In this document: positions 8,333 through 45,793 of the stretch, one piece after another | How the letters are laid out: each line of letters begins with the position of its first letter | Position numbering within the stretch: position 1 is the first letter of the stretch | DNA from: Gimesia maris | Lineage (GTDB): Bacteria > Planctomycetota > Planctomycetia > Planctomycetales > Planctomycetaceae | NCBI RefSeq assembly: GCF_008298035.1 | Contig: NZ_CP042910.1 | Coordinates: 4,107,001 to 4,171,000 of the forward strand | Reading direction: 5' to 3' | DNA length: 64,000 bases | Position numbers and translations under genes: made by a program | The notes under the pieces: generated by a model | What the model was told of the DNA's origin: nothing | Databases searched by the model: none | The model's input: only the letters and a program-made list of their open reading frames with translations

Positions 8333-8467
8333 AGGCAGGCCAGTCTCACTGTGGTCCTGCTAACACTCACAAAACCCGGTCTTGTCCCGTTTTTCAGTTT
8401 GTGTTAATGATATGCACAGTTTTAGCCTTTAAATGACAAGATAGACACTCTTACGGGCACGGATGCC

Positions 8468-11821: not shown

Positions 11822-11858
11822 TATTAACGGGAGTTACTGCCTGCAGTACTACAGATTC

Positions 11859-11897
11859 TCCCTGTTGAAAATGTTCTATCTTCATTTTCAACAGGGA
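11859..11897 (+). terminator. Strong hairpin after the FecR-like gene
   Basis: A perfect 15-bp stem (TCCCTGTTGAAAATG at 11859-11873 with its complement at 11883-11897) has a 9-base loop. It lies 37 bases past the stop codon. There is no immediate U-tract, but T-rich sequence follows 14 bases later. The rest of 11822-12129 shows nothing else that I can identify. Confidence 0.65.
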
Positions 11898-12129
11898 CTT
11901 GTGTTCTGATATTTTTCCAGTCGACATTGTTTTTTTTAAGCGGATTTTAAAAAACTCCTCTTGCTGCAATTTTCGCAGACTGCTATCTTCCTCACACTTC
12001 TCTCCCAGTCATTTCCTGATTGATTTTCAATCCTTGAAATCTAATTCCCCCTGTCTAAACCATTTTCCGACAGCATGAAATTCAGAATAGGACTCTGAAC
12101 CATGCTTACAAACGATGGAGCTGTGCACG

Positions 12130-17372: not shown

Positions 17373-17540
17373 TCAGCCGTCGCGATGGGTCTGATTCTTC
17401 TTAAAGTTCTCAGGCTGCCCAAAAATTTCCTTGTAGACCTCGTCCCGGTCGATCGGCGGGTAGCCGTTGTCTGCCAGATGTATATCGAGGGTCACGTGGA
17501 TCTCGTAGTTACCAGTAAATGCTCTCTTGCCCGCGTTGCC
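17373..17540 (-). pseudogene. C-terminal tail resembling a type I restriction subunit (HsdR)
   Basis: About 55 codons at the extreme 3' end of the minus-strand cluster read TGNYEIHVTLDIHLADNGYP followed by RDEVYKEIFGQ and ENFKKNQ. From memory, NGYPP-x-RDEVY-x-EIF-x-Q-x-ENFKK is the usual end of one HsdR-type branch. No upstream body of such a protein is present, because the frame instead merges with the end of the UvrD gene at about 17492-17540. I read this as a remnant left by a deletion. It might instead be the end of another nuclease/helicase that I do not recognise. Confidence 0.4.
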
Positions 17541-19558: not shown

Positions 19559-19560
19559 AG

Positions 19561-25923: not shown

Positions 25924-26809
25924 GCAGCGAAATCAACCGCCCAAATGTTTCCCGTTTGCCGTTGTGCGGAGTGGCGGTGGTCAGCAGTATCGAGTCTGTG
26001 CGGCGTGACAGCAATCGAGCCAGTCGGTAGGCAAGGTGTCTTTCGGGAACGCTTGCCCCGGCGACGTTGTGGGCTTCATCGATGACAACACAGTCCCAAC
26101 GGGTGTTTTCCAAGAAGTGCCGATAACTGCCCACGTTCTTCAGCGTGTCGATACTGATAATGACACGTTGGTAGACTTCAAAGGGGTTCTTATTCGCTGG
26201 GATTCGCAGCCGCAGTTTGGCGATACCGGCAGAGTCGAGTCGCACCAGTGGAAATCCGAAGCGATTCCAGAGCTCGGACTGAAACTGAGTCAGCATCGAC
26301 TTCTTGGCGAGAACCAAAACGCGATTCGCCCGACCACGTCGCATCAACTCGGAAAGGACCATCCCGACCTGAATCGTCTTGCCAAGCCCGACGGCATCAG
26401 CGAGTAACAGTCGCGGTCGAAGTTGACGTAGAGCCCATTCAACCGTCTGGATCTGGAACTTCATCGGCTTAAAGACGCCCATGCCTTCCAAATCCGGCTC
26501 AACGCCTGTCGCGGGCATCTGTCGGAGCTGAGCTTCCAGAAAAAGTTTCGCCATCCGATAACCGCTGGACTGATCCTGAACCAATTGTGTATTCCGAGGA
26601 TCAACCGGCTCAATGGTGTCGAGTTGTGTTAAAAAGATAGCCTCATGACCACGAACAAGATCATCCGCACCCACGCAGTGAACTGCATAGTTCTGGTGAT
26701 TGTGGTCAGAGGGATCCACTCGGGTGACAAGCCATTCTGCATCTCGACATAGAACGCGCATGCCCGGTGTGGGAGCTCCCATATTAGGCATCGTCATAGT
26801 CATCCACAT
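25874..26809 (-). pseudogene. drmD: DrmD-like SNF2 helicase, 3' truncated
   Basis: The 311 residues match the N-terminal part of DISARM-type DrmD as I remember it: PGMRVLCRDAEWLVTRVD, then a YAVHCVG and AIFLTQLD region, the SNF2 Walker A DAVGLGKTIQ near 145, LVLAKKSMLTQF, ISIDTLK, the DEAH box VIDEAHNVAG near 245, and TTATPHNGK (motif III) near 285. It breaks off right after LLDPSAIPDP and runs into a short foreign tail, so the second RecA lobe is missing (DrmD is usually around 1000 residues). The last 50 bases overlap, in another frame, the Walker A of the next gene. The start is ambiguous among several near-consecutive ATGs. Confidence 0.8.
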
Positions 26810-27200
26810 TTAGGCAAAGGTCGTCAAGTCTGGCGAATCGAAGACAGGCATTCAGAACTTCAGCATCGTCCTCAAAACCAATCGGTGAACTGAAATCCGG
26901 CTCATCATCATCACTATGAAAGAAATAACAAAATGCACCTGATAACCAGTTTTGAACGTTGGCTGGTAGGGTATCCCAGTCTTTAATTACCTGTTCAATC
27001 ACCTCCACGATAGCAGTTGCCAACCGGAGATTAACGATTGCATTTTGGGCATGCACTTTCTGAGTAAGTACTAGATGCTGTCGGGCGGAAACCAATAATT
27101 CATCCACAGCTAAGCCAGATACCTGATCTATCAAACTCGCCAGGCGGTCATACTGTTCATGTGAAAGTCCGGAAGGAAACATGCCAAGTTGCTTATTCAT
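26784..27200 (-). CDS. Small acidic protein upstream of drmD
   Basis: A 138-residue protein with a helical first half and a conserved-looking motif LPANVQNWLSGAFCYFF followed by an acidic DDDEPD, SPIGFEDDAEV and a C-terminal DDYDDA. I remember similar small proteins beside SNF2 helicases in DISARM-like loci, and the SP-GFEDD-E pattern recalls DUF1232/YkvA, but I cannot assign a function. It overlaps the drmD frame by 26 bases, implying translational coupling. It begins the GC-rich transcription unit and is preceded by a 280-base AT-rich gap. Confidence 0.6.
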   Translation of the reverse strand: MNKQLGMFPSGLSHEQYDRLASLIDQVSGLAVDELLVSARQHLVLTQKVHAQNAIVNLRLATAIVEVIEQVIKDWDTLPANVQNWLSGAFCYFFHSDDDEPDFSSPIGFEDDAEVLNACLRFARLDDLCLNVDDYDDA

Positions 27201-27484: not shown

Positions 27485-30400
27485 CTACTCTACACCAGCC
27501 ACATAAATCGGCACTTCGTGATCATACTGCCTAACATTAAACTGCCTGCTGATTATCGAGTTAGCCTGTTTCTCAGGTGAATCATGAAAAGAGAATGGGA
27601 TCTGACTTTCACTCTCAGCGAAGCCCATCCCCTGATCCAGAGTAATCACAGCAAGTCGATCACCCGGCCACTTGATTCTCATTGTTCTGGCATGTGCCAG
27701 CTTGTTCTTACGCAATAGCCTCACAGAAGATTTCGCAACATGATTGAACACATGTTTGAGAGTGCTTTCCTGAGCACGTTCATTCTGCCAGTTATGATGG
27801 AGACACCGACCAGTAACAGGATGATTATCAACCTTCATGGTCTGAATAGAGAGCTTACTACTGCCATGACTCCCAGCTAACAGCTCCTTCAGCACTTCGT
27901 ACAGTAGTCTGACAGCCAATGGAGATACGAGATAACGGTCTGAGTACTCTACAGTTAAAGGTGGGCCATCATTCATTGCCTCAGTTATCCAGGGAGCAAC
28001 CTTTTGGATCTGTCCCCAAAAAGCAACACCGAGATTTTCAACCTCACCGTTGAGTTCTCCACCAGCTTTATATATTTGACATTGATTGGGTTTCTGTGAT
28101 TCGATCAGACTAAGAGACAGTTTTCTCCCTTCCTGAAATTGCGAGTCATTTTTGAGGACTGTATTATGCGATTCCCGATTATGTGATTCCCGGACTGAGG
28201 GTGATTTTGGATGGCCGATGCCCCACCGGTTCCCAGCCTCCAACACGCTTGGTTCAAATACGGCCCATTCGACATAGCGACCTGCAGAACAGACTTCTGC
28301 CGCTCTGTACCCGTTCTCAACCCGACACATAGAATCTGGCATTTCTATGAGCTCAATTTCATTTGTTTCTGCGATTCGAGTTAAAGCGTGAAGTGTCGAC
28401 CAAGGTAACTGATTGCAAATAGAACTTGGAACAATAATTGAAATATGAGCCCCCTGCTTAGATAATGAAAGCTTCGCCAAATGACGATACAGACTCCAAT
28501 CTGACAAATCCCATGCATCATGCTGACCATTCAGATATACACAAATCTGGCTCAGACCAGGTCTTTTAGACTCTGCCATGATCCCTTCAACAATACATCC
28601 TGATTCGTATCGGGTAGCAGTGCCAAAGCACTGATAAGAGTCAGGGACTTTGATAGCATTCATCAAATCATCATCCAGCCAGCTCAGCAATGCATTTCGG
28701 TCGAGCTCATCCGCGCTACGTTGTGTATCGAAATCCAGTAAGCAAAAATGACACGCTGAATCGCAGTCACAAGAATTCAGATTCTCTCTGACTCGATTAA
28801 GAAGTCCCTCAAAGGAGTGCGGTATCGCAGCAACATACCCTGCCCCCCCTGCAGCTGCATCATACAGAAACACATCACGATAATTGACTCCGTCTTCAAT
28901 CGAACTTTGGACTGCCCAACCAATTTCCCGAGACTCTACCCCCAGATGTTCAGCCAGACTGGTCCTTAAAGCGATAGCCAGCGAAGTCGCAACGCTCGTT
29001 GTCATCAGTCTGCGTTCTCTATGGGGATGCTGTAATCGAATTTGCACAACATCAGTTAGATCTTCACCACCGAGCCAAAGATTTCGTTGAATCGCAAACG
29101 CACGATCGCTCCCACTACAGATATGCGTATTTTCATTTTTCCGTCCTGTTCTTAAGCGTTCATGGTTCCCGGAGACATCAAACGGTATCGCAGCACCTTC
29201 TCCTGCGTCACCTGTTTCTGATGCTGCTCTTCCACACTCCAGACAGACTGCATAGCCATATTCTGTTGCCCCTTTACTATGGTGAAATACTCTGCCATCT
29301 GAAGAGTAGCGAATTTGTCCTGTCTCCGGGTTAGAAAGGGAAACCCAGGGGCTTTCACATGTCACACGCGGATCAGTGGGAGGAACAAATGTTCGAACTT
29401 CATCTTCTGAATTCGGTCCCCGACGAATATCGACAGCAAACCCTGAAGGCTGGATGTACTTTTTATTCACGATTTCATTGGAACCGCAATGGCATGTCTC
29501 CTGTCGTTGAGTTGAAGTCGCAAAAGAACCACATGACTGACACCACCACACCCAGCGAAGTGCCTGAATTTCTTTCACAGCAGAATCATTTGGCGGAATC
29601 TGCCAGTTTAATGTCAGCCCAGCTGACTGGTAGGAAAGTCCATCAATCACGACTCGATTGCCGGGAGCGTATTCCCTGATTGCCACATCCAATTCCCTTG
29701 AAGGATAGCTCCTGTACTGAAATTGATTATCTTCCCGCCCCTGTGAATCAGCATTAAGATGTGATTGTCTTTCTGATTCTATAGATTCAACACTGGTATT
29801 AACAAATGGTAAAACATGTAGGGGAAAACCATGTGATGGCAAAAAGCCGCCACCGACTAATTCACGCAACAGATATTCTTCTTCATGCCGTCGCAACTGA
29901 CGCAGAACGGCTGCCTGCTCCGATCCAATTTGCTCGTTCTGCTCCGGCGCACCTCCCACAATCTCCAGTTGTTCCCAAAGTGATTCGCGTTGCTGTGACC
30001 AGCGTGTGGAAATCTCTTGAATCATTCTACTGGAATGATCGAGAATGCGTCGTACAGAGTCTGATTGTAGTAAGGTTCGCGCCTGCAGCCTTTCGATCCC
30101 CCTCACGATCTGCTCGCATGATTCAGCGGTTTCCTCCAGCCACGATGCAAACCTGTGACAACGAGAAGGAAGCTCTTGCTCAGGTAGAAAGAACCATTTA
30201 CACTCCAGCTTTGTGGCGTTATCTGACTCGGCAGCAATAAAACTGCCCAGTAATAACGCATTAATATGCCTTTGGACAATCCTGTCACTATTCAAGGACA
30301 CAGTCGGAACATGGATAGGAGTTGTAAAAGGCCACAGAGGATTTCGAAAAACAGCCTGACCATGTGGCAATTCTCGACATAATGTCAGCGTCGATGCTCT

Positions 30401-33400
30401 GGTGATCCCTCGACGTCCCGCCCGACCGGCCCGTTGCAACCAGTTTGCCGGTCCTGGAGGCGCGTTATTCATAGCAACAGAAGTTAAGCCGCCAATGTCG
30501 ATGCCCATTTCCATGGTGGTCGAGCAGCTCAGTAAATTAGTCATTCCCTTCCTAAATCGTTTTTCCAGAAACTGCAGACGTGATTTTGAAAGTTGTCCAG
30601 AATGCTCGGCAGTCTCAAAGTAAGGAGAGAGAAATACAATTCGATCATTGAACTGAGACCAGACACCCGCGTTTCTTGCTGCCTGAGTAACCGAATCTGT
30701 TGCCAGCCAGTCAGACACCTCATCTGGTGAGACGGTATGGCCATCTTTACGCGAAAATGGAAATGGTAGGGTTGGCATTACGACTTCAGCAGCCAGACCG
30801 AATGTAGCAAGTGACCGACGATCATGGTAGGGAGAGATTCCTCCGATGCATGCATCCAGGAACCGTCTTGTTACCGGACACAGATACCCAGAGGTAGCGA
30901 TCCGAATTTCGCTCTTGTTAAAGTTTAGCTGGTACCCTTCGGTGGTTTGATTGAAAATATCAGACATCGTCAGCTGCCGCCAGGCTGCGCGCAAAATAAC
31001 ATCAATCAAAGTTTTATCATGATCATTTTCGAGATTAAGTCCGAGTACCAGCTGAAGCAGCATCATAATCCGAGAGGCACGCCCCCTGTTACGTCGCACA
31101 CTCGGCCACCTCACCTGTAATCTGGAGATAATATCCTGATCTGGTGGTACCAACTCACGTTGCCTGAAACGCACACCAATCCAGCGCAGGTAGTCACGGC
31201 GAATCTCCGAACAGTAATTAGTCCGAACCAGATAGTCCACGCACAGTTTCAGAAATACACACCATTCGGATTTTCCGCGTCTCCGTGAGAGCCATTCTTC
31301 TGGTGGATCACATGCTTCAATCGCAGGGAACCAAATACTGGCCAGCCCCAAAGTTTCTAAGGAATTCTTACGACGTGGCCTGGATAAAAATTCGCGAAAT
31401 AGAAACATCTCTGCCAGTTCGTTCGGTTCATGAATCGCACTCAGATAACGCTGCCTTGTTGATTCCCGTATAAAGAATTCAACTGCAGGTTCTTTAGCCA
31501 ATGCACTGGAAAGATCAGACCAGGCGATAGTTGCTTGGGGAGTATCCTGTTGAGACTTTAACTGGTTCAACTTCTGGAGTTTCTCCTGATAAAGTTGCTG
31601 CAGTTCTGGACTCGTGCTTGCTACCTTCTCAAGACTGGCAACAGTTCCTTCAAGCCTGATAAGCTCAGCAGAATCAACCGATTTAGCCAGTGACCACAAT
31701 TTGTGATAAATAAAGCTCCGAACATAATTGATTTCCGACTCCCGTTGCATCCGGACTGCAAACCTTGCAGTCCCCTGTCGAGAATCTGTGAATGAAATCA
31801 TTTGCCTGCCCTCGAAGGGCTTCTTTTTTGTCTGATCCTGATGGACTGGTGCATGTGACAACAAAATCGGTATTGATACACCGAGATAAAATGGGCCTCC
31901 CAGTCGAATGGTACTGAACTGCTGCCAGCGATCGCTATCCCTTCCCCCACATGCCACACAACGAAGGCTACCAGTATCGGGCTCTGGCAATGCAAATAGA
32001 AAACTGGCCGTCCGGGCATCATCGTCAGCTAGCTTCCCGGTTTGAGTGTCATAGGGCACTGGACCGGTCATCAGATCGTTTGGAGCTCTACTACATAACA
32101 GTTGTTTGGCTGTTGATCCCGCAGGTGAAACCGATACTGCATCTAGTTCTTGAGCTTCATCTTCGAGGGATGGTTCATCATTTAATTCGATTTCGAAATC
32201 ATCCGACTCGGTTTCATCGTTCCATGGATTTGCGAACAACTGGTTTTCGTCTCCCTCATGAGCCCCCAGGTACACTTCTCCACAGTCATTGCATAATAAG
32301 ACATCAAATACCAGCGAATTGCAGTGCTGACATACTTTGCGATGATCGAAATAAACTGCCCCAAAAGGCCAGGAGTCATCAGCGAGTTCATCACTCCGAC
32401 CTTCACATTCCGGATTACAACAGGCCCAGACTCCCGGTGTCGTCCGCAGAAAATAATGACCACGAAGCGGCAAAAGCGTCGAAGAAGAATTCTTTTTTGC
32501 AGGAGATTCAGAACAGGCATCAAGTATCTGCAAAGTAAAGTCAGGATCATTCTCAATATTGAGTTCAGCCGATACCTGCGGGAGTGTTAGTGCTTTTTTA
32601 CCGAGGGTATTCCGTAATCCCCGAACTTCTGCTGATGCCGCTAATCTTGACCATCGGGCTTCATAATTATCCAAGGACTTCAACTCTTCCATGGTAGGCA
32701 GGGGAAGCTTTGCTTCTGGTACTTCCAGAGTCGGAGTAATTCGACGCCCCCCTATCACATTCACTTGGGAAACATCAATACCTGCGAGGTCTGCTAGATA
32801 TTTCTGTAACTGATTTTTTGCCTTTTCATTGCCAGATCCTCCAATCGTTGCCGACGTAGCTACAAACCGTACATTTTGCGGATCCGTATTAAACGCATTC
32901 ATCACTCGCCGTAATAATAATGAAATTTCAGCAGCATTTGATCCCAGATAAGTATGAGCTTCATCGAGAACAATCCAGCGGAGTTTGCCCTCCGACTTGT
33001 CAATGATGGGACGATCCTGACTTCTAACCAACATATACTCCAGCATGGTCGCATTCGTCACCAGAATTGGTGGTGGTGAATCCCACAGGTTCTTTCTTGA
33101 AAGAACCTGCTCCGGTCGCGCGCTTTGATCGGCGGAATTACAGGAAGTCGGCGTCGCACCGTTGTACAGACAATACCTTACCCCGCCTTTGAGACCAGCT
33201 GTCCAGGCAGAGAGTCGTTCCTGCTGGGAATTAATAAGAGCATTCAGAGGATAGAGAAATAATGCACGAACCCCCACCAGCTGTTTCTTGCGAGTGGCTT
33301 CCCATTCTCTCACCAGGTCATCCAGGATCGGTATCAGAAAACATTCTGTTTTACCACTGGCCGTACCGGTACTTACAATCACAGAGCGTGCGGGATTCTC

Positions 33401-33739
33401 TTTCAATGCCTGCCATGCTGCAATCTGATGTTTATAAGGCCGTTCCGTCCTCGGGAAGCGGCGTTCGGCGTGATCTTTCGGTGGGGCATCAAGCAAATTA
33501 ATCAACGTCGGATGAAGGAAATCGATATCACTGAGTATATCCGCGTTTTTTTCATATTCGAAAAGTGATTCGAATACAGGTTGACTCAGCAAACTCGCAT
33601 CTTTACCAGGCAGTGCCTCAAAGTTTCTTAACAGGAACTGCCGTAAGGCATCATTTGATGGATTTTTATCACTGATCGTGGCACGAGCCGTCTGCTCTCT
33701 GAGTCTCGTCATTAGGGATAAAAAATAACTGTCACTCAT
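27485..33739 (-). CDS. Giant DEAD/DEAH helicase with DUF1998
   Basis: A 2084-residue superfamily 2 helicase. An N-terminal domain precedes Walker A STGTASGKTE near residue 126; DEAHTYLGSN follows near 260 and SATIGG near 297. A cysteine-rich zinc-ribbon region (CCNPEC, CQHC, CNDCG) lies around 440-490, and the second helicase lobe with MGIDIGGLTS and QRAGRAGRRG near 1080. DUF1998 has DAAAGGAGYV near 1630 and an MZB-like cluster CDCDSACHFC near 1660. About 400 further residues of unknown fold end the protein. The start is ATG 33739, which overlaps the upstream stop as ATGA and has AAGG seven bases ahead. It looks intact, is the likely effector of the sigma-54-controlled unit, and is much more AT-rich than the 19561-25923 helicase. 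Confidence 0.88.
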   Translation of the reverse strand: MSDSYFLSLMTRLREQTARATISDKNPSNDALRQFLLRNFEALPGKDASLLSQPVFESLFEYEKNADILSDIDFLHPTLINLLDAPPKDHAERRFPRTERPYKHQIAAWQALKENPARSVIVSTGTASGKTECFLIPILDDLVREWEATRKKQLVGVRALFLYPLNALINSQQERLSAWTAGLKGGVRYCLYNGATPTSCNSADQSARPEQVLSRKNLWDSPPPILVTNATMLEYMLVRSQDRPIIDKSEGKLRWIVLDEAHTYLGSNAAEISLLLRRVMNAFNTDPQNVRFVATSATIGGSGNEKAKNQLQKYLADLAGIDVSQVNVIGGRRITPTLEVPEAKLPLPTMEELKSLDNYEARWSRLAASAEVRGLRNTLGKKALTLPQVSAELNIENDPDFTLQILDACSESPAKKNSSSTLLPLRGHYFLRTTPGVWACCNPECEGRSDELADDSWPFGAVYFDHRKVCQHCNSLVFDVLLCNDCGEVYLGAHEGDENQLFANPWNDETESDDFEIELNDEPSLEDEAQELDAVSVSPAGSTAKQLLCSRAPNDLMTGPVPYDTQTGKLADDDARTASFLFALPEPDTGSLRCVACGGRDSDRWQQFSTIRLGGPFYLGVSIPILLSHAPVHQDQTKKKPFEGRQMISFTDSRQGTARFAVRMQRESEINYVRSFIYHKLWSLAKSVDSAELIRLEGTVASLEKVASTSPELQQLYQEKLQKLNQLKSQQDTPQATIAWSDLSSALAKEPAVEFFIRESTRQRYLSAIHEPNELAEMFLFREFLSRPRRKNSLETLGLASIWFPAIEACDPPEEWLSRRRGKSEWCVFLKLCVDYLVRTNYCSEIRRDYLRWIGVRFRQRELVPPDQDIISRLQVRWPSVRRNRGRASRIMMLLQLVLGLNLENDHDKTLIDVILRAAWRQLTMSDIFNQTTEGYQLNFNKSEIRIATSGYLCPVTRRFLDACIGGISPYHDRRSLATFGLAAEVVMPTLPFPFSRKDGHTVSPDEVSDWLATDSVTQAARNAGVWSQFNDRIVFLSPYFETAEHSGQLSKSRLQFLEKRFRKGMTNLLSCSTTMEMGIDIGGLTSVAMNNAPPGPANWLQRAGRAGRRGITRASTLTLCRELPHGQAVFRNPLWPFTTPIHVPTVSLNSDRIVQRHINALLLGSFIAAESDNATKLECKWFFLPEQELPSRCHRFASWLEETAESCEQIVRGIERLQARTLLQSDSVRRILDHSSRMIQEISTRWSQQRESLWEQLEIVGGAPEQNEQIGSEQAAVLRQLRRHEEEYLLRELVGGGFLPSHGFPLHVLPFVNTSVESIESERQSHLNADSQGREDNQFQYRSYPSRELDVAIREYAPGNRVVIDGLSYQSAGLTLNWQIPPNDSAVKEIQALRWVWWCQSCGSFATSTQRQETCHCGSNEIVNKKYIQPSGFAVDIRRGPNSEDEVRTFVPPTDPRVTCESPWVSLSNPETGQIRYSSDGRVFHHSKGATEYGYAVCLECGRAASETGDAGEGAAIPFDVSGNHERLRTGRKNENTHICSGSDRAFAIQRNLWLGGEDLTDVVQIRLQHPHRERRLMTTSVATSLAIALRTSLAEHLGVESREIGWAVQSSIEDGVNYRDVFLYDAAAGGAGYVAAIPHSFEGLLNRVRENLNSCDCDSACHFCLLDFDTQRSADELDRNALLSWLDDDLMNAIKVPDSYQCFGTATRYESGCIVEGIMAESKRPGLSQICVYLNGQHDAWDLSDWSLYRHLAKLSLSKQGAHISIIVPSSICNQLPWSTLHALTRIAETNEIELIEMPDSMCRVENGYRAAEVCSAGRYVEWAVFEPSVLEAGNRWGIGHPKSPSVRESHNRESHNTVLKNDSQFQEGRKLSLSLIESQKPNQCQIYKAGGELNGEVENLGVAFWGQIQKVAPWITEAMNDGPPLTVEYSDRYLVSPLAVRLLYEVLKELLAGSHGSSKLSIQTMKVDNHPVTGRCLHHNWQNERAQESTLKHVFNHVAKSSVRLLRKNKLAHARTMRIKWPGDRLAVITLDQGMGFAESESQIPFSFHDSPEKQANSIISRQFNVRQYDHEVPIYVAGVE

Positions 33740-36700
33740 ACCTCTACCTTTTCTTCCATTACAAAACATCTGTGATTTTGTGTAAGTCGACGCCCCGCTA
33801 GAATCTGCATCGCGATCACATTCGCCCGATCAAACCAGACTGGATCAACACTGCGAAGCTCTTTCAGTTTCATGATGATGAGTGGGGGTAACGGAAAATC
33901 ATGAACTGAATATGCTGCAGCGATGGCAGGCGCATTCAGGACTTCCCATTGATTAGAATGTCCATCACTAATTTCTATATCTGAAATAACCCCCCTGACT
34001 CGCTCTGGAATCCGCAAGTCCACTTGTGGCCAAACAGTTCGCGTATCATATAAATCATGGTCAGCAATAAGTCGACTACGTTCCTGCTGCAGTCGCTCCA
34101 GCAACGAGTCTTGTTCATTCACCATCAAGTCCTTTATATTTATATTTTGCGGAGGGATTTTGAAACCTGATATATGCAAACATGAATTGATACAGACACC
34201 CCCACCCCAGCGCAGAGCAAGATCCTGAGAAAAGCCCTCTATTTTACTTTCGATAATCTGGCTAGACATATCTGCTTCAAGTGAATCTAGCTGCTGAAGC
34301 AGTAGTTCGACATGACACCTCAGTGCAGTCACCCATGATCGAACTGGCACTGTTGCCCAGAGAAACGGTAATTCTTCAAGTCGCTGCCATAGCCAGGAAA
34401 GTCGATGCATTCGGATCGCCAGCATGGCTGTCGCATCAGAGTTCCTGATAAGACTCGAAATAGCCTCATATGTAGTAAGAGGGAGACGTTGATTTGATTT
34501 TATCAGTGAATCAATCCGTGCCCAACCAGGATGACCTGAGTCACAAGCAATTCTGTTTACGAAGGCTTCCCACTCAAATCTGCGAACATCGTGACTTAAT
34601 GTGTTTAATGCCGTGTCAAACTGATCCGAAGGTTCTGCATCTTCCACTCGTATCGGATCAATTAAATTAAGATTTACCGAAACTCTGAGTGGTCTGAGAC
34701 AACGAAATTCATTGATCCAGGCTACCACCAGATAAATCCCCGTCCCCAGCATTTCATGAGATAACTTCCACTTCGCCTCTCCAATTCTTTGAACGGCAGC
34801 TGTTTCTATGACCGCATCAGGTTGCCCCAGTGGTGAGACATCAATCCGAATATCTTCTCCAGAAATCCGAAGATCTTGCAATGTCTGTTCACTCACAAAA
34901 ACCTCTGTGCAATCTGGTTGAGTCCCTGTTTCTGAGTAATCATTTGGCTCTTTCTCGAGCCAGCCTGGATAACGCGCAACTTTAAAAGAAAACAGGTCGA
35001 TTGAGGATGGTGGACGTTCAAGCCGTATCTCAACGCTTCCATCTGGATCATCTGATTGTGCTAGGATCCCCTGAATGATTTCCTGTACCGATGAGAGTGC
35101 AAACTCTTGCGTGCCAGTATTTCTGAACTCTGTAGGTTTACCTAAGAAGCGATGTCGGGATCGTTCTATGAGGATTAAATCCTGACTCTTAGGAGTGAGG
35201 ATGCGTAAAAATAGACCATCGAGCTGATCCATGGGAATCGGAAGGTTTTTTGAAATGGCCAAACCAGCAGCGTTAACGATATATATGCCATCTGTTGGAC
35301 ATGTCGCCTGTAAATATGACCGCACGCCGTTATGAAAATGAATCGAGATCGGAATTGTTACTGGCCGATCGCTCCCTGAGCATAACGTAACATGCAGTTG
35401 GGTGACTGACTTCTGACTCTCGACTTGCGTTTCTACACCTGAAATCTCACCTGGAAACACAGCAGCCATGCCAAGATTTTTTAATTCAATTGTCCCTTTG
35501 TTATTACGCCTTGGACGGATTCGATAACTGAAGCCATCAGGTAGAAGCGTTAAACGGGTCTGAAAAATCGTTTCATGATTCCGCACTGCCCGCAAAGAGA
35601 CATCTCCGACGCAATTCGAGGAAAGATTCTGCCAGGTATTACCTGTCCCTTTCCATTCGATCATGTGTTGGGGAACATCCGAGACAGTTCCCGAGCTATT
35701 GACCGGATACTCTATAATCTCAGGTATTCCATACCAAAAGCTTGATCCGTTCGGCCCCAACGTTCCACCACGCCCCCTCAATTTAAAAATAGATGTCGCC
35801 TCTTCTTCTGCCCTTGAACAAATCCGAACATCATTCCCATCCTGACACAGACACAACTCTCCACTCAATCTCATAACGATCCGATTATCATCCGAATTCG
35901 AGTCAATCAGAACTTCCATTTCAGGCGAACCGACCCATGTGACTCCTGGAGGAATCGCTACAAGCACAGTCGAATATCGCGTCTTTACTGAGCCAACTCC
36001 GATCAGTTCAGCTGGATCCGCATCAGAAAACACCCATGGCGATTCAGGAAGTGCTTCACCACCAGGTACGACAATAGATGAAACTTGACGGTTGCCAGCA
36101 GTCACCACCAGTCGAATCGTCCCGTCAGCATCACTTCCGGTCAGTGGAGTAGATGAGATACTGGTAATGACATAAGAATCATCAATAGAACGTTTAGCGA
36201 TAGTCCCCACTCTCACTTGCTGTGTATCACTCTGTAAATACAGGGTCATTCTAGGCTGAAGTTCTTTAGCTGAAGACAATTCAAGCCATCGCCAGAGGTC
36301 CTCTTCATTGATCACTGATTCATAGTTCAAGTCACGAGAAATCAGTATTGATTGATCTTGCATAGTCAGGAAAGTGGTTACAGAGAATCCTTCAGATGGC
36401 AATGCACGGGCTACTTCCTGATCCAGCAGCCCTAAAATCAGGTCCATCGCATCTGAATCGTCAATTCGTAACGGGATTGAATCACGCCAACCGGATAGAT
36501 TTTGATCAAGATATTCCTGTCGCCCCTGCCCATTCTCTTCGACTGCCTTCGAACTCCGTCTCAGGTTTGCTACACAATCAACAATACGACAGGTTAATGT
36601 CTGAACACCGCTATTGTTCAGAGTCTTGGGCAGCAAAAATGCGTACTCCTCAAACACACCGTTGATAGGCTCCTGCGGATAGCGCTCGTGATGTTGTAAC

Positions 36701-37170
36701 ATCTTTTTCAGAAATCGTCTCAAAGGAGCGACATGGTTTCGTAATGTCTTCAGCGGCAACCCCCCTTGACATGCCAGGGTTACGAGATATTGCGTAGCAA
36801 TCTCGGTTTCGACAAGAGGCACTTTCCACCAATTGAGCCCTGCCGCAGTTGTATGACGCACACTATTGTTTCGAAATGATTTTTTTGTTGAACCTTTGAG
36901 ACCAAGGCCATCATCTAGAATAATATCCCAGCTCCATGGCCCCTGATCGTGATTCCGACGAAACCACTCTGCCCCAAACAGACAGAAGGCAGCCTGTTGC
37001 TCCTTTTTTCTTAACTCTGGATTAACCTGCAATGCGTCTTTTAACGCTGCCTGCAGCATTAAAAGCTCCTCTTGAGTCACTTTATAAGCGTACAATGGAT
37101 GCTTATCTACAGGATCGAGGCCAGACCGCTCTATTATATGGTCTAGAATATTCTGAATTTGGCTCGCCAA
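33736..37170 (-). CDS. Large protein of unknown function, STY4851/ECs_5259-like
   Basis: No enzyme motif is evident. The N-terminal ~250 residues include HPLYAYKVTQEEL, an AFCLFGAEWFRR block, GPWSWDIILDD, LACQGGLPLK and AFLLPKTLNN. From memory this spacing matches the uncharacterised STY4851/ECs_5259 family, which accompanies large helicases. The rest is long and beta-rich, with no Walker or nuclease signature. The open frame reaches TTG 37296, inside the sigma-54 promoter. ATG 37266 would lie only about 3 bases after the predicted transcript start, so I choose TTG 37170, which has GAGGA seven bases upstream, giving about 1144 residues. It is coupled to the helicase by ATGA. Confidence 0.7.
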   Translation of the reverse strand: MASQIQNILDHIIERSGLDPVDKHPLYAYKVTQEELLMLQAALKDALQVNPELRKKEQQAAFCLFGAEWFRRNHDQGPWSWDIILDDGLGLKGSTKKSFRNNSVRHTTAAGLNWWKVPLVETEIATQYLVTLACQGGLPLKTLRNHVAPLRRFLKKMLQHHERYPQEPINGVFEEYAFLLPKTLNNSGVQTLTCRIVDCVANLRRSSKAVEENGQGRQEYLDQNLSGWRDSIPLRIDDSDAMDLILGLLDQEVARALPSEGFSVTTFLTMQDQSILISRDLNYESVINEEDLWRWLELSSAKELQPRMTLYLQSDTQQVRVGTIAKRSIDDSYVITSISSTPLTGSDADGTIRLVVTAGNRQVSSIVVPGGEALPESPWVFSDADPAELIGVGSVKTRYSTVLVAIPPGVTWVGSPEMEVLIDSNSDDNRIVMRLSGELCLCQDGNDVRICSRAEEEATSIFKLRGRGGTLGPNGSSFWYGIPEIIEYPVNSSGTVSDVPQHMIEWKGTGNTWQNLSSNCVGDVSLRAVRNHETIFQTRLTLLPDGFSYRIRPRRNNKGTIELKNLGMAAVFPGEISGVETQVESQKSVTQLHVTLCSGSDRPVTIPISIHFHNGVRSYLQATCPTDGIYIVNAAGLAISKNLPIPMDQLDGLFLRILTPKSQDLILIERSRHRFLGKPTEFRNTGTQEFALSSVQEIIQGILAQSDDPDGSVEIRLERPPSSIDLFSFKVARYPGWLEKEPNDYSETGTQPDCTEVFVSEQTLQDLRISGEDIRIDVSPLGQPDAVIETAAVQRIGEAKWKLSHEMLGTGIYLVVAWINEFRCLRPLRVSVNLNLIDPIRVEDAEPSDQFDTALNTLSHDVRRFEWEAFVNRIACDSGHPGWARIDSLIKSNQRLPLTTYEAISSLIRNSDATAMLAIRMHRLSWLWQRLEELPFLWATVPVRSWVTALRCHVELLLQQLDSLEADMSSQIIESKIEGFSQDLALRWGGGVCINSCLHISGFKIPPQNINIKDLMVNEQDSLLERLQQERSRLIADHDLYDTRTVWPQVDLRIPERVRGVISDIEISDGHSNQWEVLNAPAIAAAYSVHDFPLPPLIIMKLKELRSVDPVWFDRANVIAMQILAGRRLTQNHRCFVMEEKVEV

Positions 37171-37279
37171 GATGCTTTCCTCTGTTGCAAAGAAGATTTC
37201 ACTTAATAACGCTGACTGATCAGAAAACCTGGAAGAAGCTTCGCAAGTATTAAATTTCTGTTGCATGCTGAATATCAAA

Positions 37280-37296
37280 AGCAAGAAGCATGCCAA
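37280..37296 (-). promoter_or_regulatory. Sigma-54 promoter of the helicase operon
   Basis: Read on the minus strand, 37296-37280 is TTGGCATGCTTCTTGCT. It fits the -24/-12 consensus YTGGCACG-N4-TTGCW at every strongly conserved position (TGGCA, then TTGC at exact spacing), differing only at the less conserved C. It begins 8 bases after the stop codon of the CARF/sigma-54 activator. Predicted +1 is about 37269, giving a leader of about 99 bases to the TTG start at 37170. Confidence 0.8.
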
Positions 37297-37304: not shown

Positions 37305-38927
37305 TCACTCTGATTTGGCCCTGCTTTCATTCGCTGTTTTTTGTGATACCCCCAGCCGCTTGAGCTGCGCATCGAGTGTCTGATAACTACCCATTCCCAG
37401 CAGGCGGGCTGCTTTTGCCTTTACTCCATGCGCCTCATCCATAGCACGTTGTAAGTACCTACAATGGATTTCATTCAGATGTTCCTCCAGGTCAAAGCCG
37501 TCTCCCAGCGGACGATCCAAGATCGAGTTCCGGCCATTTTTAGTCCCAGGAAAATCAGCTATGGAAGCAGCCAGTTCCTTTTTTCCAATCTCTGTTCCCT
37601 CGGACAGAATCGCGGCCTGCATCAGGGCGTTATATAGCTGCCGCACATTCCCCGGCCAGGGCTGGGATTTCACAAATGAAATTGCGGAACCAGAAAGGGA
37701 TTTGTGTTGATACCCCGGTTCTTCCGCGGCGAACTGCCGATTAAGCATGCCCAGTAATCGCTCTGCGATTTTGGGAATATCAGACTTTCGGTCCCGCAGC
37801 GGGGGTAAGTTAATGGAGATTGCGGCCAGGCGAAAATAAAGGTCTTCCCGAAATTCGCCGGCTTCCATCGCCGAAAACAGGTCTTTGTTAGTGGCAGCTA
37901 TGATCCGGACGTCCACGGTGCGTTCATCATTCTCTCCCAGGCGGCAGACCCGCCGCACAGAAGCCCCTTTTCCCGTGACAGGTTGCAGTACCCGCAGCAG
38001 TTTGGCCTGTGTTTCCAGATCACACTCCCCGATTTCATCCAGGAACAGCGTTCCTCCATCAGCAGCCTCGAACAAACCTGCCCTGGCCTGTTCCGCCCCT
38101 GTAAAGGCCCCTTTGCAATGACCGAACAGTTCGGATTCGAGCAGACTCTTGGAAAGTGCCGCACAATTGACAGTTTTAAGTTCCTGATGGCGACGCTGAC
38201 TTGCCTTGTGAATCGCCTGGGCGAACATCTCTTTACCGGTTCCGCTTTCTCCTACCAGGAGAACTGAAACATTGCGGATTGCAGCACGTTGGGCGCGTCC
38301 CACTGCTTCCCGGATCGCCCGGCTGTCACCGGCAATATCTTCAAAACCTTCGATCTCTGCGGGAGCCCGGGAAGCCAGGTGCTGCAGATGCGCGTCCGGA
38401 TTGCGAAGCACTTCGGGAAGTACATCAATCAGATCAAAGGGGATATCAGTCGCCCAGACACGCCCGTCACGCGCTGTTTCATAGAATGTGGCAGGATAGC
38501 GGGTTTTCCCCAGCAGAAGTAACACCGCGGACATGGCCGGCGTCCCTGGACTCAAGTGCAGACAAAGCTCGGTCTCCGACCAGTCCCTGGACTGTTTGAT
38601 CTCTGCCAGTTCCCGGTCGACGATCTCAAATATTCTGGCATAATCGGTCGGTTGATGCAGTTCGACGGGGATCCAGTTGACAGAGGTGCCCAGCCACTGC
38701 TGATACCATTTGTTCCACTGCCGGTCATAGGTACTCAGCAGCCGGATTTCATCAAAGCCCTGTGCCTGGATGAGCGTTTTCGTAGGGCCCAAATCACCGG
38801 GCTCAGCAGGTGCTCCCTTGAGCTGATCCTGTATTATTTTCTGCCGTGCAGGAGACGCGGCGGTCGCCAGTGCTCTGAAGTCACTGTGGCCGATCCATTG
38901 AACCAGGATACGTCTCTTTGCTGCCAT
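37305..38927 (-). CDS. CARF-domain sigma-54 transcriptional activator (RtcR-like)
   Basis: Residues ~1-160 form a CARF-type Rossmann domain: [10 protein letters not shown] at the first strand, FDEIRLLST, and the ligand-side motif [11 protein letters not shown] near residue 127. The AAA+ activator domain follows, with Walker A GESGTGKE near 229, GAFTGA (sigma-54 contact loop) near 274, LDEIGE near 297 and [10 protein letters not shown]-type elements. A FIS-like helix-turn-helix ([10 protein letters not shown]) ends the protein. RtcR, the known relative, controls rtcBA RNA repair and senses RNA ends or nucleotides through CARF. No rtc genes are near. I place the start at ATG 38927; the ribosome binding site is weak, and the frame extends to 39011. 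A sigma-54 promoter lies directly downstream. Confidence 0.88.
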
Positions 38928-38951
38928 ATCTTTGCTGTCCGTCACTGATGC

Positions 38952-38969
38952 ATTTGTGGAATCACAAAT
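38952..38969. promoter_or_regulatory. Perfect palindrome at the regulator's transcript start
   Basis: ATTTGTG-GAAT-CACAAAT is a perfect 7-4-7 inverted repeat, 24 bases ahead of the regulator ATG and around the predicted +1 (~38966). It could be an operator for autoregulation. Confidence 0.5.
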
Positions 38970-38972
38970 TTG

Positions 38973-39001
38973 ATTGTACAGAGAGTGTACAAAAATCGCA
39001 A
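38973..39001 (-). promoter_or_regulatory. Sigma-70-type promoter of the CARF/sigma-54 regulator
   Basis: On the minus strand, TTGCGA (39001-38996) and TACAAT (38978-38973) are separated by 17 bases. Predicted +1 is about 38966, roughly 39 bases ahead of the ATG at 38927. The -10 box is inside the TGTACA palindrome, so a bound protein would block it. Confidence 0.55.
38974..38992. promoter_or_regulatory. Perfect palindrome overlapping the -10 box
   Basis: TTGTACA-GAGAG-TGTACAA is a perfect 7-5-7 inverted repeat overlapping the predicted -10 of the regulator promoter, 4 bases from the neighbouring palindrome. Arrangement and position are typical of a repressor or autoregulator site. Confidence 0.5.
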
Positions 39002-39532: not shown

Positions 39533-40786
39533 ATGTTTCGATTTATCCACGCCGCCGACATCCACCTCGACAGTCCACTCAAAGGACTGGAACAATACGA
39601 GGGAGCTCCTGTCGAGATCATCCGCACCGCCCCTCGTGAGGCGCTCGTCAATCTTGTAGATTTGGCCATTGACGAAAGCGTCGCCTTCGTCCTGATTGCG
39701 GGGGACCTTTACGATGGAGACTGGCGGGATTTTAACACAGGCCTGTTTTTCATACGTCAGGCACAGCGGCTCCGTGATGCCGGGATTCCCCTCTACCTGA
39801 TCTCCGGGAATCATGATGCCGCCAACCGGATCACCCGCAGCCTGCAGTTGCCGGAAAACGTCACCTTTTTTTCTCCCACCCAGGCAGAGACAAAACTGAT
39901 CCCGGAACTGGATGTCGCCATCCACGGTCAGAGTTTTGCGACCGCAGCGGTTTACGATAACCTCGCACAGAACTACCCGGCAGCCCACTCCGGCTGTTTC
40001 AATATCGGAGTGTTGCACACCTGCGCCACCGGGAGTGAAGGTCATGAACGATATGCCCCCTGTACCCTGGAAGACCTCAAGATACACAACTATGACTACT
40101 GGGCACTGGGACATATCCATAAACGGGAAATCCTGTGCGAAGATCCTTTAATTGCGTTTTCCGGGAACATCCAGGGACGTCACATCCGCGAGACCGGCCC
40201 CAAGGGCTGCCTGTTGGTTACCGTGGACGATGAGCGACGTCTTCGCACGGAATTCCGTGCCCTGGATATCTTACGGTGGGAACGGGCAATCGTTGACCTT
40301 GATGGTGCCCGTTCCCTTGAAGAGGCACTGGAGCGGGTCTCGACCACGATGGAAACCCTGTTTGGCCAGGCGGAAGGCAGAACCCTGGCACTCCGGATCG
40401 ATCTCCAGGGGGCTTGCCCTGCTCACAACGAACTGCTCGCCCGGCGGCATCAGCTGATTGCCGAGATCCGCGTACGTGCCCTGGATGTCGGTGGGGGTGA
40501 GATCTGGATTGAAAAAATCAAAATCAACACGTCTGATCCTGCATCCGGCAACACGGAAATCTCTGACGATGCTCTGGGAGAAATCCACCAGGTATTCGCT
40601 CAGGTCAAAGCCAACCCGTTGCTGCTGGCAGAACTAGGTTGTGATTTCAGTAAGCTGAACCAGAAACTGCCTGCCAACGTCAGGAATTCGGCACTCCGGC
40701 TGAACGATCAGGCATGGCTGAATGAACTGCTCACGGAAGCAGAATCGGTGTTAATGAGCCGACTCACAGGAAGGGGAGACCAGTAA
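39533..40786 (+). CDS. SbcD/YhaO-like metallophosphoesterase nuclease
   Basis: A calcineurin-like metallophosphoesterase of the Mre11/SbcD superfamily. The motifs are in order: HAADIHLDSP (motif I) at the N-terminus, IAGDLYDGD (II), SGNHDAA (III), and the ALGHIHK metal site near residue 190. With 417 residues it fits the YhaO branch rather than classical SbcD. It ends with TAATG, overlapping the next gene by one base, so the two products are made together and should form a nuclease-ATPase complex acting on DNA ends. Start ATG 39533. Confidence 0.9.
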   Translation: MFRFIHAADIHLDSPLKGLEQYEGAPVEIIRTAPREALVNLVDLAIDESVAFVLIAGDLYDGDWRDFNTGLFFIRQAQRLRDAGIPLYLISGNHDAANRITRSLQLPENVTFFSPTQAETKLIPELDVAIHGQSFATAAVYDNLAQNYPAAHSGCFNIGVLHTCATGSEGHERYAPCTLEDLKIHNYDYWALGHIHKREILCEDPLIAFSGNIQGRHIRETGPKGCLLVTVDDERRLRTEFRALDILRWERAIVDLDGARSLEEALERVSTTMETLFGQAEGRTLALRIDLQGACPAHNELLARRHQLIAEIRVRALDVGGGEIWIEKIKINTSDPASGNTEISDDALGEIHQVFAQVKANPLLLAELGCDFSKLNQKLPANVRNSALRLNDQAWLNELLTEAESVLMSRLTGRGDQ

Positions 40787-43700
40787 TGAAATTTCTGAAA
40801 CTGGATCTGCGTGCCTTTGGCCCGTTCACAGATCAATGCCTGGACCTGTCCCAACCAGCCCAGGGACTGCATCTGATTTATGGTCCCAACGAAGCAGGCA
40901 AGAGTTCGACCCTGCGTGCCATCACGGATTTCTTATTTGAAATCCCCGGCCGCTCCAATGATAACTTCATCCATCAATACAGCAAATTACGGATTGGAGC
41001 CGAACTGGAGGGCAGCGAAGGTCAACGACTGCAGATCATCCGCCGCAAAGGTAATCAGAAGACTCTACGGTGTGAAGACGATCAGAATCCGGTTGATGAA
41101 TCCCTGCTCCAGGCATTCCTCGGAAACATCGACCGCACGCTGTTTGAGTTGATGTTCGGTATCGATCACGCACGATTACGCCAAGGGGGAGCCCAGATCC
41201 TCGCAGGCGAGGGAGAAATCGGGAAACTGCTGTTCGCCGCGGGGGCTGGAGTTGCCAATCTTCAGGATGTGCAGTCCACGCTCACCCAGGAGACCGAACA
41301 GTTACTCAAACCCACGGGCCGCAGCGGCTACATCGCTGAAAGTGCCAATCAACTTCGGGATTTGCAGAATTCCGTCAAAGAATCCCAGGTACCACTGGAA
41401 TCATGGAAGAAACATGACGAAGCCCTCCAGACAGCCAGAGCACAGCAGGGACGGTGTGATCAGGCTATACGCGAGAAACAGAGTGAATTCAATCGCCTCT
41501 CCCGGATCAGGAATACGATCCCTATCGTGGGACGCTGGAAACAGGCGCAAGCGGAATGGGAAGCCGTCCGGCAGGTCCCCCTGCTGGATCAGGTATTTTC
41601 CGAAACGTACCGTCAAACCATCATCGATTTCGAAACAGCGCGGCAGCAGCAAGCGAATCTCGCAGAACGTCACCAGCAGATTCTGGCAAAATTGAAGCTG
41701 ACCGTGGTCCCAGAACAAATCATCCAGGAAGCAACGGCGATCGAAACGGCCCGCAACGAACTGGGCAGTTACCTGAAAGCCAAAGCGGATTTACCTCGCC
41801 TGACCACGGCACGAAACTTAGCAGAGAATGATGTGCATGAACTGCTGCAGAAACTGGGGCGTCCTCCTGAATTGTCGGAGATTGAAAGCCTGAGGTTGAC
41901 TTCGGACAAGACCATTCTCATCCAGACTCTGGGCACGCAGAAAGAGGGGGTAGTCGAACGGGAGCGATCTACCCTGAGGGAAAGCGAACGCATCAACCTT
42001 GAACGGTCGCAGATCGTTGAAAAACTCCAGTCACTTCAGGATTTACCCGATTACCGACTGCTGCAGCAGAAACTCAAATTGATCCAGCAGCAGGGGGATC
42101 TGGAGAAGCTCCTGCAGACATCGCAAAGCGAACTGCGGGAACTCGAACAAGAAGCGGAAGTCCGGTTACAGCAACTTCCCCTCTGGAAGGGAGCGTTTGC
42201 TGAAATTGAACTGCTGGCGGTCCCTTCCTCGACCACCGTTGATCAATTTGCCGAGGAATTCCGGGAACAGGAACGTCAGCTGGGATCGCTCCAGCAGAAT
42301 TTACAGCAGCAGCGCCAGGATCAGGAGTCCATTGAAACCCGGCTGGAACAACTGGAACTGGGGCAAAGCGTCCCCACTGACGCAGAACTGACTGAAAAAC
42401 GCCAGCTCCGCGAGCAAGGCTGGCAGCTGGTCCTGGATGCCTGGCAGAAAAATGAGGAGGATGCTGCGGCTCAGGCAGAATTCCTGGACCAGTTCCCCGG
42501 CAAGGACCACCTGTCCAAAGCCTACCATCAAAGCGTGGAACATGCGGACCAGGTTGCCGACCAGCTGCGTTCTGATGCCGATCGCGTTGCCACCAAGGCC
42601 CAGTTACTGCAACAACGCGAGCGGAATCTAGCAGGGGAAGCCACATTACTGGAAGAGATCGCAGAGCTGCAGCAGCGACAACAGGCAAGCGAAGAACGCT
42701 GGCAGGAACTCTGGACCGGTCTGCAAATCAACCCTCGCTCTCCCAAGGAGATGAGTGACTGGTTGCGTCAGCAGGAAGCATGCTGCGTTCTGTCGAAAGA
42801 GATTCGTCTGAAACGCTCTGCCATCGATGAACAAATCCAGACAGTCGCCACATCCCGAACAGAGCTCACCACAGTCCTGACAGAGACAGAACCTGATTTG
42901 AAGTGTGAGCAGCGGTCGCTCAAAGAGCTGCTGGAGATTGCCGATGAGCGCTGTCAGCATTACCAGAAACTGGAAAACCAGCGGGAACAATACGAGGAGG
43001 AACGGGACTCACTGCAAAAACAGCTGTGCGATTCCCTGTCCCAGGCCAGCCAGGCACAGGATGAGCTGCAAACATGGAAGTCCAACTGGGAAAAGGCCGT
43101 GCAGGAAATCGGGCTGGATGCCGAAGCGTTACCCGCCCAGGCGAATCAGGTTCTTGCTGACATCAATGACTTAATGAGCAAATTTCAGAAGGTGGAACAG
43201 TTGCGAATCCGGATTGATGATATCCAGCGTGAAGCGGAGGAATTTTCACTGCGAACCCGAGAGTTGATCCAGCGTATAGACCCGGAGCTGGAATCCCTGC
43301 CCCTTTCTGAAGCCGTCAATAAACTGGATGGTGAGCTGAAGGCAGCGCGTCTGACCGAGGAAAAGCAGACCGGTCTGCTACAGCAGGAACGGGAACTTGA
43401 GCATGAATGTGAAGAGGCCAGGAGCTCACTCTCCCGCCTGAACACAGCCCTGACGGAAATGTGTCGCCAGGCCGGCTGTGATAACCATAAGAACTTGTCA
43501 CAGGCCGTCGAGCAATCTCAAAAACGGCAACAGCTGGAACAGACGAGCCGTGCTCTGCAGGAACAAATCCTGCTGCAGAGCAGTGGCAGCGTCTTCGAAG
43601 AATTCCTGGCTGAGGTAGAGCTGGAAGCCAAGGAAGCAGACACTCTTCCCCCGCGGATGGCAGAACTGGAAAACGATCTGAACCAGCTGAACCAGGAACG

Positions 43701-44325
43701 AGATGTACTGATCGGGCAGATTGTGAGCGAGACCAGCGAGCTGGCCAAAATCGATGGCAGTGCCCAGGCTGCAGAAAAAGCGGCCGAATGCGAAAGCGTG
43801 ACTGCCCGCCTGGAAGAACAGGTGCATGATTATGTAGTCCTGAAGCTAGCCTCAAGCCTGCTCAACGAAGGCATCGATCGGTACCGACAGAAAAATGAAG
43901 GACCGGTCCTGAAGCGGGCCAGTGAAATCTTCTGCGAAATTACAATGAACGCTTACCAGGGGCTGAAAGTCGATTTTGACGAGAAGGCTCAACCGGTCCT
44001 GGCCGCGGTGCGCAACAACGATTTAATCCAAGTGATACAAATGAGCGACGGCACCTGCGACCAGCTCTATCTGGCACTCAGGCTGGCCAGCCTGGAAACC
44101 TGGCTGGAACATCATGAGCCCCTTCCCCTGATTGTCGATGATATCCTGCTGAATTTTGATGACGAACGTGCCGTTGCCACCCTTAAGGTTCTCTCTGATC
44201 TCGCCCGGCAGACCCAGGTCCTGTTTTTCACGCATCACGCACACCTGGTCAAAATCGCTGAAGAAAACCTGTCTGACGAGAATCTGCACGTGACCAATCT
44301 CCACGAACTGACTTTCACCGGCTGA
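40786..44325 (+). CDS. SbcC/YhaN-like coiled-coil ATPase
   Basis: A 1179-residue SMC/Rad50-like ATPase partner of the preceding nuclease. The N-terminal lobe has Walker A GPNEAGKSS near residue 35, and the C-terminal lobe has Walker B LPLIVDDILLNFDDE near 1115 and a FFTHH segment. Nearly everything between is predicted coiled coil, rich in Q, E and L heptads. The AAA_27 (YhaN) style of the first 200 residues (FGIDHARLR, ILAGEGEIG) favours YhaN over true SbcC. It probably clamps or tethers DNA for end processing. A small CTGACAG/CTGTCAG hairpin overlaps its stop. Confidence 0.9.
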   Translation: MKFLKLDLRAFGPFTDQCLDLSQPAQGLHLIYGPNEAGKSSTLRAITDFLFEIPGRSNDNFIHQYSKLRIGAELEGSEGQRLQIIRRKGNQKTLRCEDDQNPVDESLLQAFLGNIDRTLFELMFGIDHARLRQGGAQILAGEGEIGKLLFAAGAGVANLQDVQSTLTQETEQLLKPTGRSGYIAESANQLRDLQNSVKESQVPLESWKKHDEALQTARAQQGRCDQAIREKQSEFNRLSRIRNTIPIVGRWKQAQAEWEAVRQVPLLDQVFSETYRQTIIDFETARQQQANLAERHQQILAKLKLTVVPEQIIQEATAIETARNELGSYLKAKADLPRLTTARNLAENDVHELLQKLGRPPELSEIESLRLTSDKTILIQTLGTQKEGVVERERSTLRESERINLERSQIVEKLQSLQDLPDYRLLQQKLKLIQQQGDLEKLLQTSQSELRELEQEAEVRLQQLPLWKGAFAEIELLAVPSSTTVDQFAEEFREQERQLGSLQQNLQQQRQDQESIETRLEQLELGQSVPTDAELTEKRQLREQGWQLVLDAWQKNEEDAAAQAEFLDQFPGKDHLSKAYHQSVEHADQVADQLRSDADRVATKAQLLQQRERNLAGEATLLEEIAELQQRQQASEERWQELWTGLQINPRSPKEMSDWLRQQEACCVLSKEIRLKRSAIDEQIQTVATSRTELTTVLTETEPDLKCEQRSLKELLEIADERCQHYQKLENQREQYEEERDSLQKQLCDSLSQASQAQDELQTWKSNWEKAVQEIGLDAEALPAQANQVLADINDLMSKFQKVEQLRIRIDDIQREAEEFSLRTRELIQRIDPELESLPLSEAVNKLDGELKAARLTEEKQTGLLQQERELEHECEEARSSLSRLNTALTEMCRQAGCDNHKNLSQAVEQSQKRQQLEQTSRALQEQILLQSSGSVFEEFLAEVELEAKEADTLPPRMAELENDLNQLNQERDVLIGQIVSETSELAKIDGSAQAAEKAAECESVTARLEEQVHDYVVLKLASSLLNEGIDRYRQKNEGPVLKRASEIFCEITMNAYQGLKVDFDEKAQPVLAAVRNNDLIQVIQMSDGTCDQLYLALRLASLETWLEHHEPLPLIVDDILLNFDDERAVATLKVLSDLARQTQVLFFTHHAHLVKIAEENLSDENLHVTNLHELTFTG

Positions 44326-45719: not shown

Positions 45720-45793
45720 TAGACTTGCTCCTGCTCCGACCTTTTTCACCAACCAAATCCTGATACATCTTGAACATTGATAGAAGTAAATTC

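Follow-up and report, generated by a model that had tools for sequence, protein, structure and literature searches.

CARF-NtrC-type proteins encoded beside restriction-modification genes were predicted in 2014 to be sigma-54 activators of the genes downstream of them (PMC4012209). In 2024, RtcR-like activators were described at the head of superoperons of CoCoNuT, type I RM and Druantia III genes. In the accessible part of that paper, the activator is located at the 5' end of co-directional defence genes, sometimes Druantia type III, and is proposed to be an on-switch (PMC11090510). Activation is a prediction there, and the same part reports neither a promoter nor a dyad nor a leaderless start. 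RtcR of E. coli and Salmonella is also a CARF-AAA+-HTH activator beside a strong sigma-54 promoter, that of rtcBA. The E. coli rtcR gene is divergent from rtcBA, unlike the co-directional layout described in this report, and no ACAA-N6-TTGT pair is found ahead of it. The Druantia type III systems of E. coli and Klebsiella have two full-length genes in the same order as the locus presented here. They are often found beside Zorya II, and no CARF activator was present at the loci examined. A further likeness exists to PspF, a sigma-54 activator that governs the stress operon psp and whose binding sites overlap the promoter of its own gene. PspF is not known to carry a CARF domain, and the psp operon is divergent.

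The present locus occupies the minus strand of a 64-kb stretch of DNA (the window). The intact activator gene (37305–38927) encodes 540 residues from an ATG at 38927. PADLOC assigns the protein to RtcR_PspF2 (CARF_AAA_HTH; E 2e-155, 516 bits), and Pfam detects Sigma54_activat (E 2e-63) and HTH_8, a Fis-type HTH. The AAA+ domain carries Walker A and GAFTGA. For a model of the N-terminal domain (pLDDT 88), the top matches are all CARF proteins (Csm6, the ring nuclease Sis0811, Card1, Can2 and Cam1); the modelled sensor domain matches the CARF fold. The activator was rejected as RtcR proper, since it reaches 308 bits against the cut-off of 650 of the NCBIfam RtcR equivalog and has no rtcA or rtcB neighbours. 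RtcB is encoded elsewhere in the genome, and a search of the genome for RtcA gave no match. In Salmonella, RtcA helps to produce the ligand of RtcR (PMC7790460). By analogy with RtcR, the ligand of the activator may be RNA with a 2',3'-cyclic phosphate end (PMC7790460). Because the genome has no RtcA and the CARF domains are distant from that of RtcR, cyclic oligoadenylates or other molecules are considered as alternatives that may serve as ligand.

Two co-directional genes follow. The first encodes DruH of Druantia type III (33736–37266, minus strand; YjiT/STY4851 family), identified by PADLOC as DruH3 (E 3e-65) and by NCBIfam NF038336 (431 bits, cut-off 150). The second encodes DruE (27485–33739, minus strand; PADLOC DruE3, E 0, residues 12–2090), a YprA-family helicase with the Pfam domains DEAD, Helicase_C and MZB. 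The reading frame of DruE extends to 33769 and its likely start at 33739 overlaps the DruH stop. Both genes are full length and adjacent, and by sequence they are a complete Druantia type III system. Compared to the CoCoNuT superoperons, the operon contains neither CoCoNuT nor type I RM genes and DruH follows the activator directly.

The first-pass annotation had placed a sigma-54 promoter between the two units, downstream of a sigma-54 activator with GAFTGA. Re-reading of the DNA confirmed the sequence, coordinates, strand and spacing of the site and its distance from the stop codon, and Walker A, GAFTGA and HTH are all present in the activator upstream. The site, TTGGCATGCTTCTTGCT (37296–37280, minus strand), has GG at 37294–37293 and GC at 37282–37281, separated by 10 nt, and fits TGGCAyr-N4-TTGCw. 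Its first base is 8 nt from the activator stop, which ends at 37305. Every 17-mer on both strands of the window (~128,000 positions) was scored with a weight matrix (consensus YTGGCACGnnnnTTGCW), whose approximate weights follow a published compilation. TTGGCATGCTTCTTGCT is the top site of the window with 19.2 bits, and the runner-up has 12.4 bits. As a positive control, the known rtcBA promoter of E. coli scores 20.2 bits by the same method. The strict pattern TGGCAYGNNNNTTGCW matches once in the window, with 0.05 matches expected from shuffles, and seven times in the whole genome (7.8 Mb) compared to two matches of the reversed pattern. A single sigma-54 gene, rpoN (PF04552, E 4e-61), is present in the genome. 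With the C of GC taken as -12, sigma-54 geometry predicts the transcription start (+1) at 37269 on the minus strand.

Conservation of the site was inspected in related loci. From 84,980 species genomes, 291 CARF-domain relatives were obtained and the best 80 of these were kept. The family-profile search was dominated by other sigma-54 activators; full-length matches alone were used. Together with the window, 66 loci from this set encode an intact activator that is followed by 150 nt or more of sequence. They represent one activator family and were selected because they resemble the window and its relatives. In the range from -20 to +150 nt around the activator stop, a sigma-54 site of at least 9 bits is present in 56 of the 66 loci but at only 29 of 1194 control gene ends in the same loci. 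At a threshold of 13 bits, the corresponding numbers are 37 of 66 and 5 of 1194. The reverse strand of the same stretch gave one site in 66 loci at 9 bits and none at 13 bits. After removal of activators that are more than 70% identical, the site is found in 32 of 41 loci (Fisher p ~3e-38). It is retained in 16 of 21 representatives at 60% identity and in 7 of 8 at 50%, where few independent lineages are left, phylogenetic dependence being treated through these thresholds alone. The loci cover Planctomycetota, Myxococcota, Pseudomonadota, Desulfobacterota, Acidobacteriota and others, and plasmid-borne relatives carry the site as well. The GG is invariant in the loci with a site, and the -12 dinucleotide is GC in 46 of them and GA in nine (mostly Myxococcota). 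As the sites were picked by score, the argument rests on the control rates and not on these GG and GC counts. Conservation of GG and GC in related loci had been named in the first-pass annotation as the point on which its promoter would stand or fall, and the site is indeed kept. At the level of sequence, the assignment of a real sigma-54 promoter between the activator gene and the Druantia III operon holds.

Several loci vary in detail. In at least nine, the -24 element overlaps the stop codon of the activator (TAATGGCAC, TGATGGCAC). TTGA replaces TTGC at the same -12 position in L077, L078, L079, L094, L098, L100, L103, L104 and L111 (mostly Myxococcota). Two loci of another activator subfamily (L011 and L014) have their sigma-54 sites ~98 nt past the stop. 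There, a leader and a Shine-Dalgarno sequence precede a small protein that appears nuclease-like (SNase) by eye, and the arrangement is not leaderless. No recognisable sigma-54 site was found in 10 of the 66 activator loci, including L095. This locus is the sole other one among the 66 with Druantia genes alongside the activator. Its Druantia III genes (3406–12411) are on the opposite strand and convergent with the CARF sigma-54 activator.

The first-pass annotation read the DNA as a wiring of sensor, promoter and effectors. The order of activator and promoter stands and recurs across many loci. The idea itself was published in 2014 and 2024 and is therefore not new, and two elements had been overlooked, a conserved dyad ahead of the activator gene and an in-frame ATG at about +4.

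The dyad ACAATCAAATTTGT (ACAA-N6-TTGT; 38964–38977, minus strand) is located 50 nt before the activator start and is a candidate operator or UAS. A degenerate second dyad, ACAAATGCATCAGT (38944–38957, minus strand), has two mismatches and is 20 bp from the first. A sigma-70 consensus scan of the minus strand gave the -10-like hexamer TACAAT (38973–38978), which is overlapped by the dyad, and a weak -35-like hexamer TTGCGA (38996–39001). This possible activator promoter agrees with 9 of 12 consensus positions, and the number of such matches is not above chance. In 10 of 66 loci (the window and nine relatives), TACAAT is found at a distance of 15–75 nt ahead of the activator start. Due to the overlap of dyad and TACAAT, occupancy of the dyad could affect transcription of the activator gene itself.

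Among the inverted repeats shared by the loci, a single non-coding word stood out, ACAA-N6-TTGT, which was found within 300 nt ahead of the activator gene in 23 of 55 loci (at most five in shuffles). Of 65 loci, 49 carry the dyad with up to one mismatch in the interval 10–80 nt upstream of the activator start, compared to 11 of 1327 control gene starts. It forms 42 pairs, spaced by 20 bp (34 pairs) or 21 bp (8 pairs), which is about two helix turns. The dyad is kept in 14 of 21 representatives at 60% identity and in 5 of 8 at 50%. A clear dyad is absent from the plasmid relatives. The arrangement has the pattern of an enhancer-binding-protein site and could represent an enhancer, an autorepression site or both. 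Probably, the dyad is the operator of the activator. Sigma-54 enhancers are usually 80–200 bp upstream of the promoter, a distance that is typical and not strictly defining. In the window, ~1.7 kb separate the dyad from the sigma-54 promoter. Conserved dyads were found solely before the activator gene, and exact copies near the promoter occur in just 2 of 66 loci, both ~390 nt off. Perhaps the dyad also works as an enhancer over the ~1.7 kb. For an operator beside the promoter, the dyad search gave no candidate, although a weaker or different site may be present nearby. The words found there (300 nt upstream, 180 nt downstream) encode conserved protein motifs; they coincide with the coding sequence of the HTH and of the HsdR motif NFEFL and were therefore not counted as signals.

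The second overlooked element is an ATG at predicted +4 (37264–37266, minus strand), which is in frame with DruH, recurs in relatives and is a candidate leaderless start. It would change the expected start of DruH, lengthening the protein by 32 residues ahead of the usual N-terminus. For the comparison with related loci, an ATG was counted if it opens a frame of at least 100 codons, with positions again derived from the C of the GC element as -12. An in-frame effector ATG at +2 to +6 is present in 30 of the 56 loci with a site and in 25 of 1194 controls. The adjacent five-base bins hold none or one. With plasmid loci included, 32 such ATGs were counted, of which 23 occupy +3 or +4. Regardless of frame, 34 loci have an ATG at +2 to +6 and 30 of these are in frame, compared to 25 of 83 in controls, where about one third is expected. 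Dereplication leaves 16 loci with an ATG in this range, and in 13 of them it is in frame (p 1e-4). The signal is concentrated in HsdR loci (26 of 41). In-frame ATGs remain in 6 of 21 representatives at 60% identity and in 2 of 8 at 50%, and with so few lineages independence is less secure for this feature than for the other two. The remaining six strict matches to the sigma-54 pattern in the genome show no ATG close to the start, and neither does E. coli rtcB (ATG at +29). In leaderless mRNAs, the start codon is at most ~5 nt from the 5' end. According to a review (PMC9031893), 70S ribosomes translate such mRNAs, beginning at an AUG that is at the 5' end or close to it. Because the in-frame ATG recurs at the predicted 5' end, the effector mRNA is probably leaderless or nearly so.

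The genes following the activator differ among relatives. HsdR, the type I restriction subunit (one cluster, identified by Pfam), is among the next genes in 41 of 66 loci. Other cargo comprises HsdM, VWA proteins, AAA_15/DUF3696 proteins, and TPR and kinase proteins. In plasmid loci, VWA-phosphatase-kinase sets come after the activator; on Rhodoferax and Polaromonas plasmids (L124 and L125), it heads a TerY-P-like VWA-PP2C-kinase set with no restriction gene. Among 81 loci (the best 80 of 291 and the window), DruH is directly next to the activator in the window alone. Thus, the conserved unit is the activator-promoter pair and not the junction with DruH. A plasmid of Pseudomonas luteola (NZ_CP044084) encodes the activator, HsdRMS and DruH-DruE, in this order and all co-directional, as reported for the CoCoNuT superoperons (PMC11090510). 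No such activator was found upstream of DruH in 14 further loci from three groups (Planctomycetota, Gammaproteobacteria and Myxococcota). Judging from the prevalence of HsdR, the single DruH of the window and the other DruH loci without activator, the switch usually controls restriction genes and takes Druantia III as cargo only occasionally. The activator-promoter module appears to be a portable on-switch that serves restriction as well as defence genes.

It is likely that the activator, the dyads of its own gene, the sigma-54 promoter and a leaderless or short-leader druHE mRNA form a self-contained inducible defence switch. The activator would be produced in small amounts from a promoter of its own and would be bound to the paired ACAA-N6-TTGT dyads, probably limiting its own synthesis. 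Its CARF domain would bind a nucleotide that signals infection or RNA damage. Ligand binding would lead to assembly of the AAA+ ring and to opening of the sigma-54 polymerase waiting at 37296–37280. The resulting transcript from near 37269 would encode DruH and DruE with the AUG almost at its 5' end. The sequence features, the domains and their conservation were observed directly. From these we infer that the activator binds the dyads, that the dyads act as enhancer and operator and that the operon is inducible, as well as the nature of the ligand, the position of the start site and translation without a leader.

A real sigma-54 promoter could also drive druHE with a normal leader, translation starting at TTG 37170–37168 and the ATG at +4 being unused, perhaps as a relic of an ancestral restriction-gene junction. 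This reading is possible but somewhat unlikely. It agrees with a good Shine-Dalgarno-like sequence, AGAGGAAAG (37175–37183, minus strand), 8 nt ahead of the TTG, with the alignments of the DruH family profiles and of a homologue of 30% identity, which begin at about this codon, and with several other loci that have a second in-frame start, some with a Shine-Dalgarno sequence. The recurrence of the in-frame ATG at +2 to +6 and its frame bias over the controls argue against a start at the TTG only. Improbable is an activator that targets other sites or itself, with druHE expressed mostly by read-through from the activator promoter or from another promoter and the site being minor or a vestigial remnant of an ancestral type I restriction cassette. 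The nearest relatives of the activator mostly precede type I R genes, and in none of ~18 other DruH loci is an activator directly before the gene, so Druantia III normally works without one. The site of the window, on the other hand, is among the best-scoring of the 66 and not decayed.

A chance match without function is barely credible. The site is a single 17-mer and the genome holds a few further strict matches, but the low expectation per window and the filling of the same place in 56 of 66 loci, highly significant even after dereplication, are at odds with coincidence. On the grounds of shuffles, matrix ranking and conservation, a chance origin was rejected.

The activator of the window is of the same kind, and follows the same predicted logic, as the proteins described in 2014 (PMC4012209). 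That prediction was made from gene neighbourhood alone, and here the promoter and a candidate operator are located. Control of defence genes by CARF/sigma-54 is thus a published prediction, and the exact promoter, the dyad and the start placement are the new part. In a limited literature search, no earlier account came up of where the promoter is located, of the tandem dyad or of how the start codon is placed. The neighbourhood prediction thereby becomes a set of exact DNA parts (operator pair, promoter and start codon) common to dozens of loci. With Druantia III replacing a type I restriction enzyme, the switch appears able to take new cargo. A more general proposal, at present rather doubtful, is a widespread class of defence switches in which the operator of the activator gene doubles as an enhancer across the 1.6-kb gene and activation yields a leaderless effector mRNA. 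Leaderless mRNAs can initiate without Shine-Dalgarno contact, and for this reason synthesis of the defence proteins could continue even in a cell whose RNAs had been cleaved by phage or toxin RNases. Should the expression prove to be leaderless, there would be a way to keep restriction genes, whose mistimed expression is dangerous, off until a damage signal arrives and to have them translated while ordinary initiation fails. The RNase damage survived by such an mRNA would be the very damage that an RtcR-like CARF domain would sense. This link between leaderless translation and RNA damage is speculation.

Further defence-like genes are present in the window. A McrBC pair, with an EVE domain in the McrB-like protein, is located at 45770–49476 (plus strand), and an SbcD-like protein and an AAA_27 (SbcC-like) protein are encoded upstream of it (39533–44325, plus strand). 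Membership of the locus in the RtcR-CoCoNuT superoperons was rejected, as the McrBC genes are ~7 kb away and on the other strand. Behind Druantia III, a second helicase operon (17492–27200, minus strand) encodes a 138-aa protein, an SNF2 fragment (311 aa), a YprA-family helicase (2120 aa) and a GajB-like UvrD. In composition it recalls ARMADA, which includes the components ArmA, ArmC and ArmD (PMC12458937). The SNF2 gene ends and the YprA gene starts at the Walker A motif of the latter, with an out-of-frame junction near 25880–25890, as if an internal deletion had removed ArmB together with the remaining part of ArmA and the beginning of ArmC.
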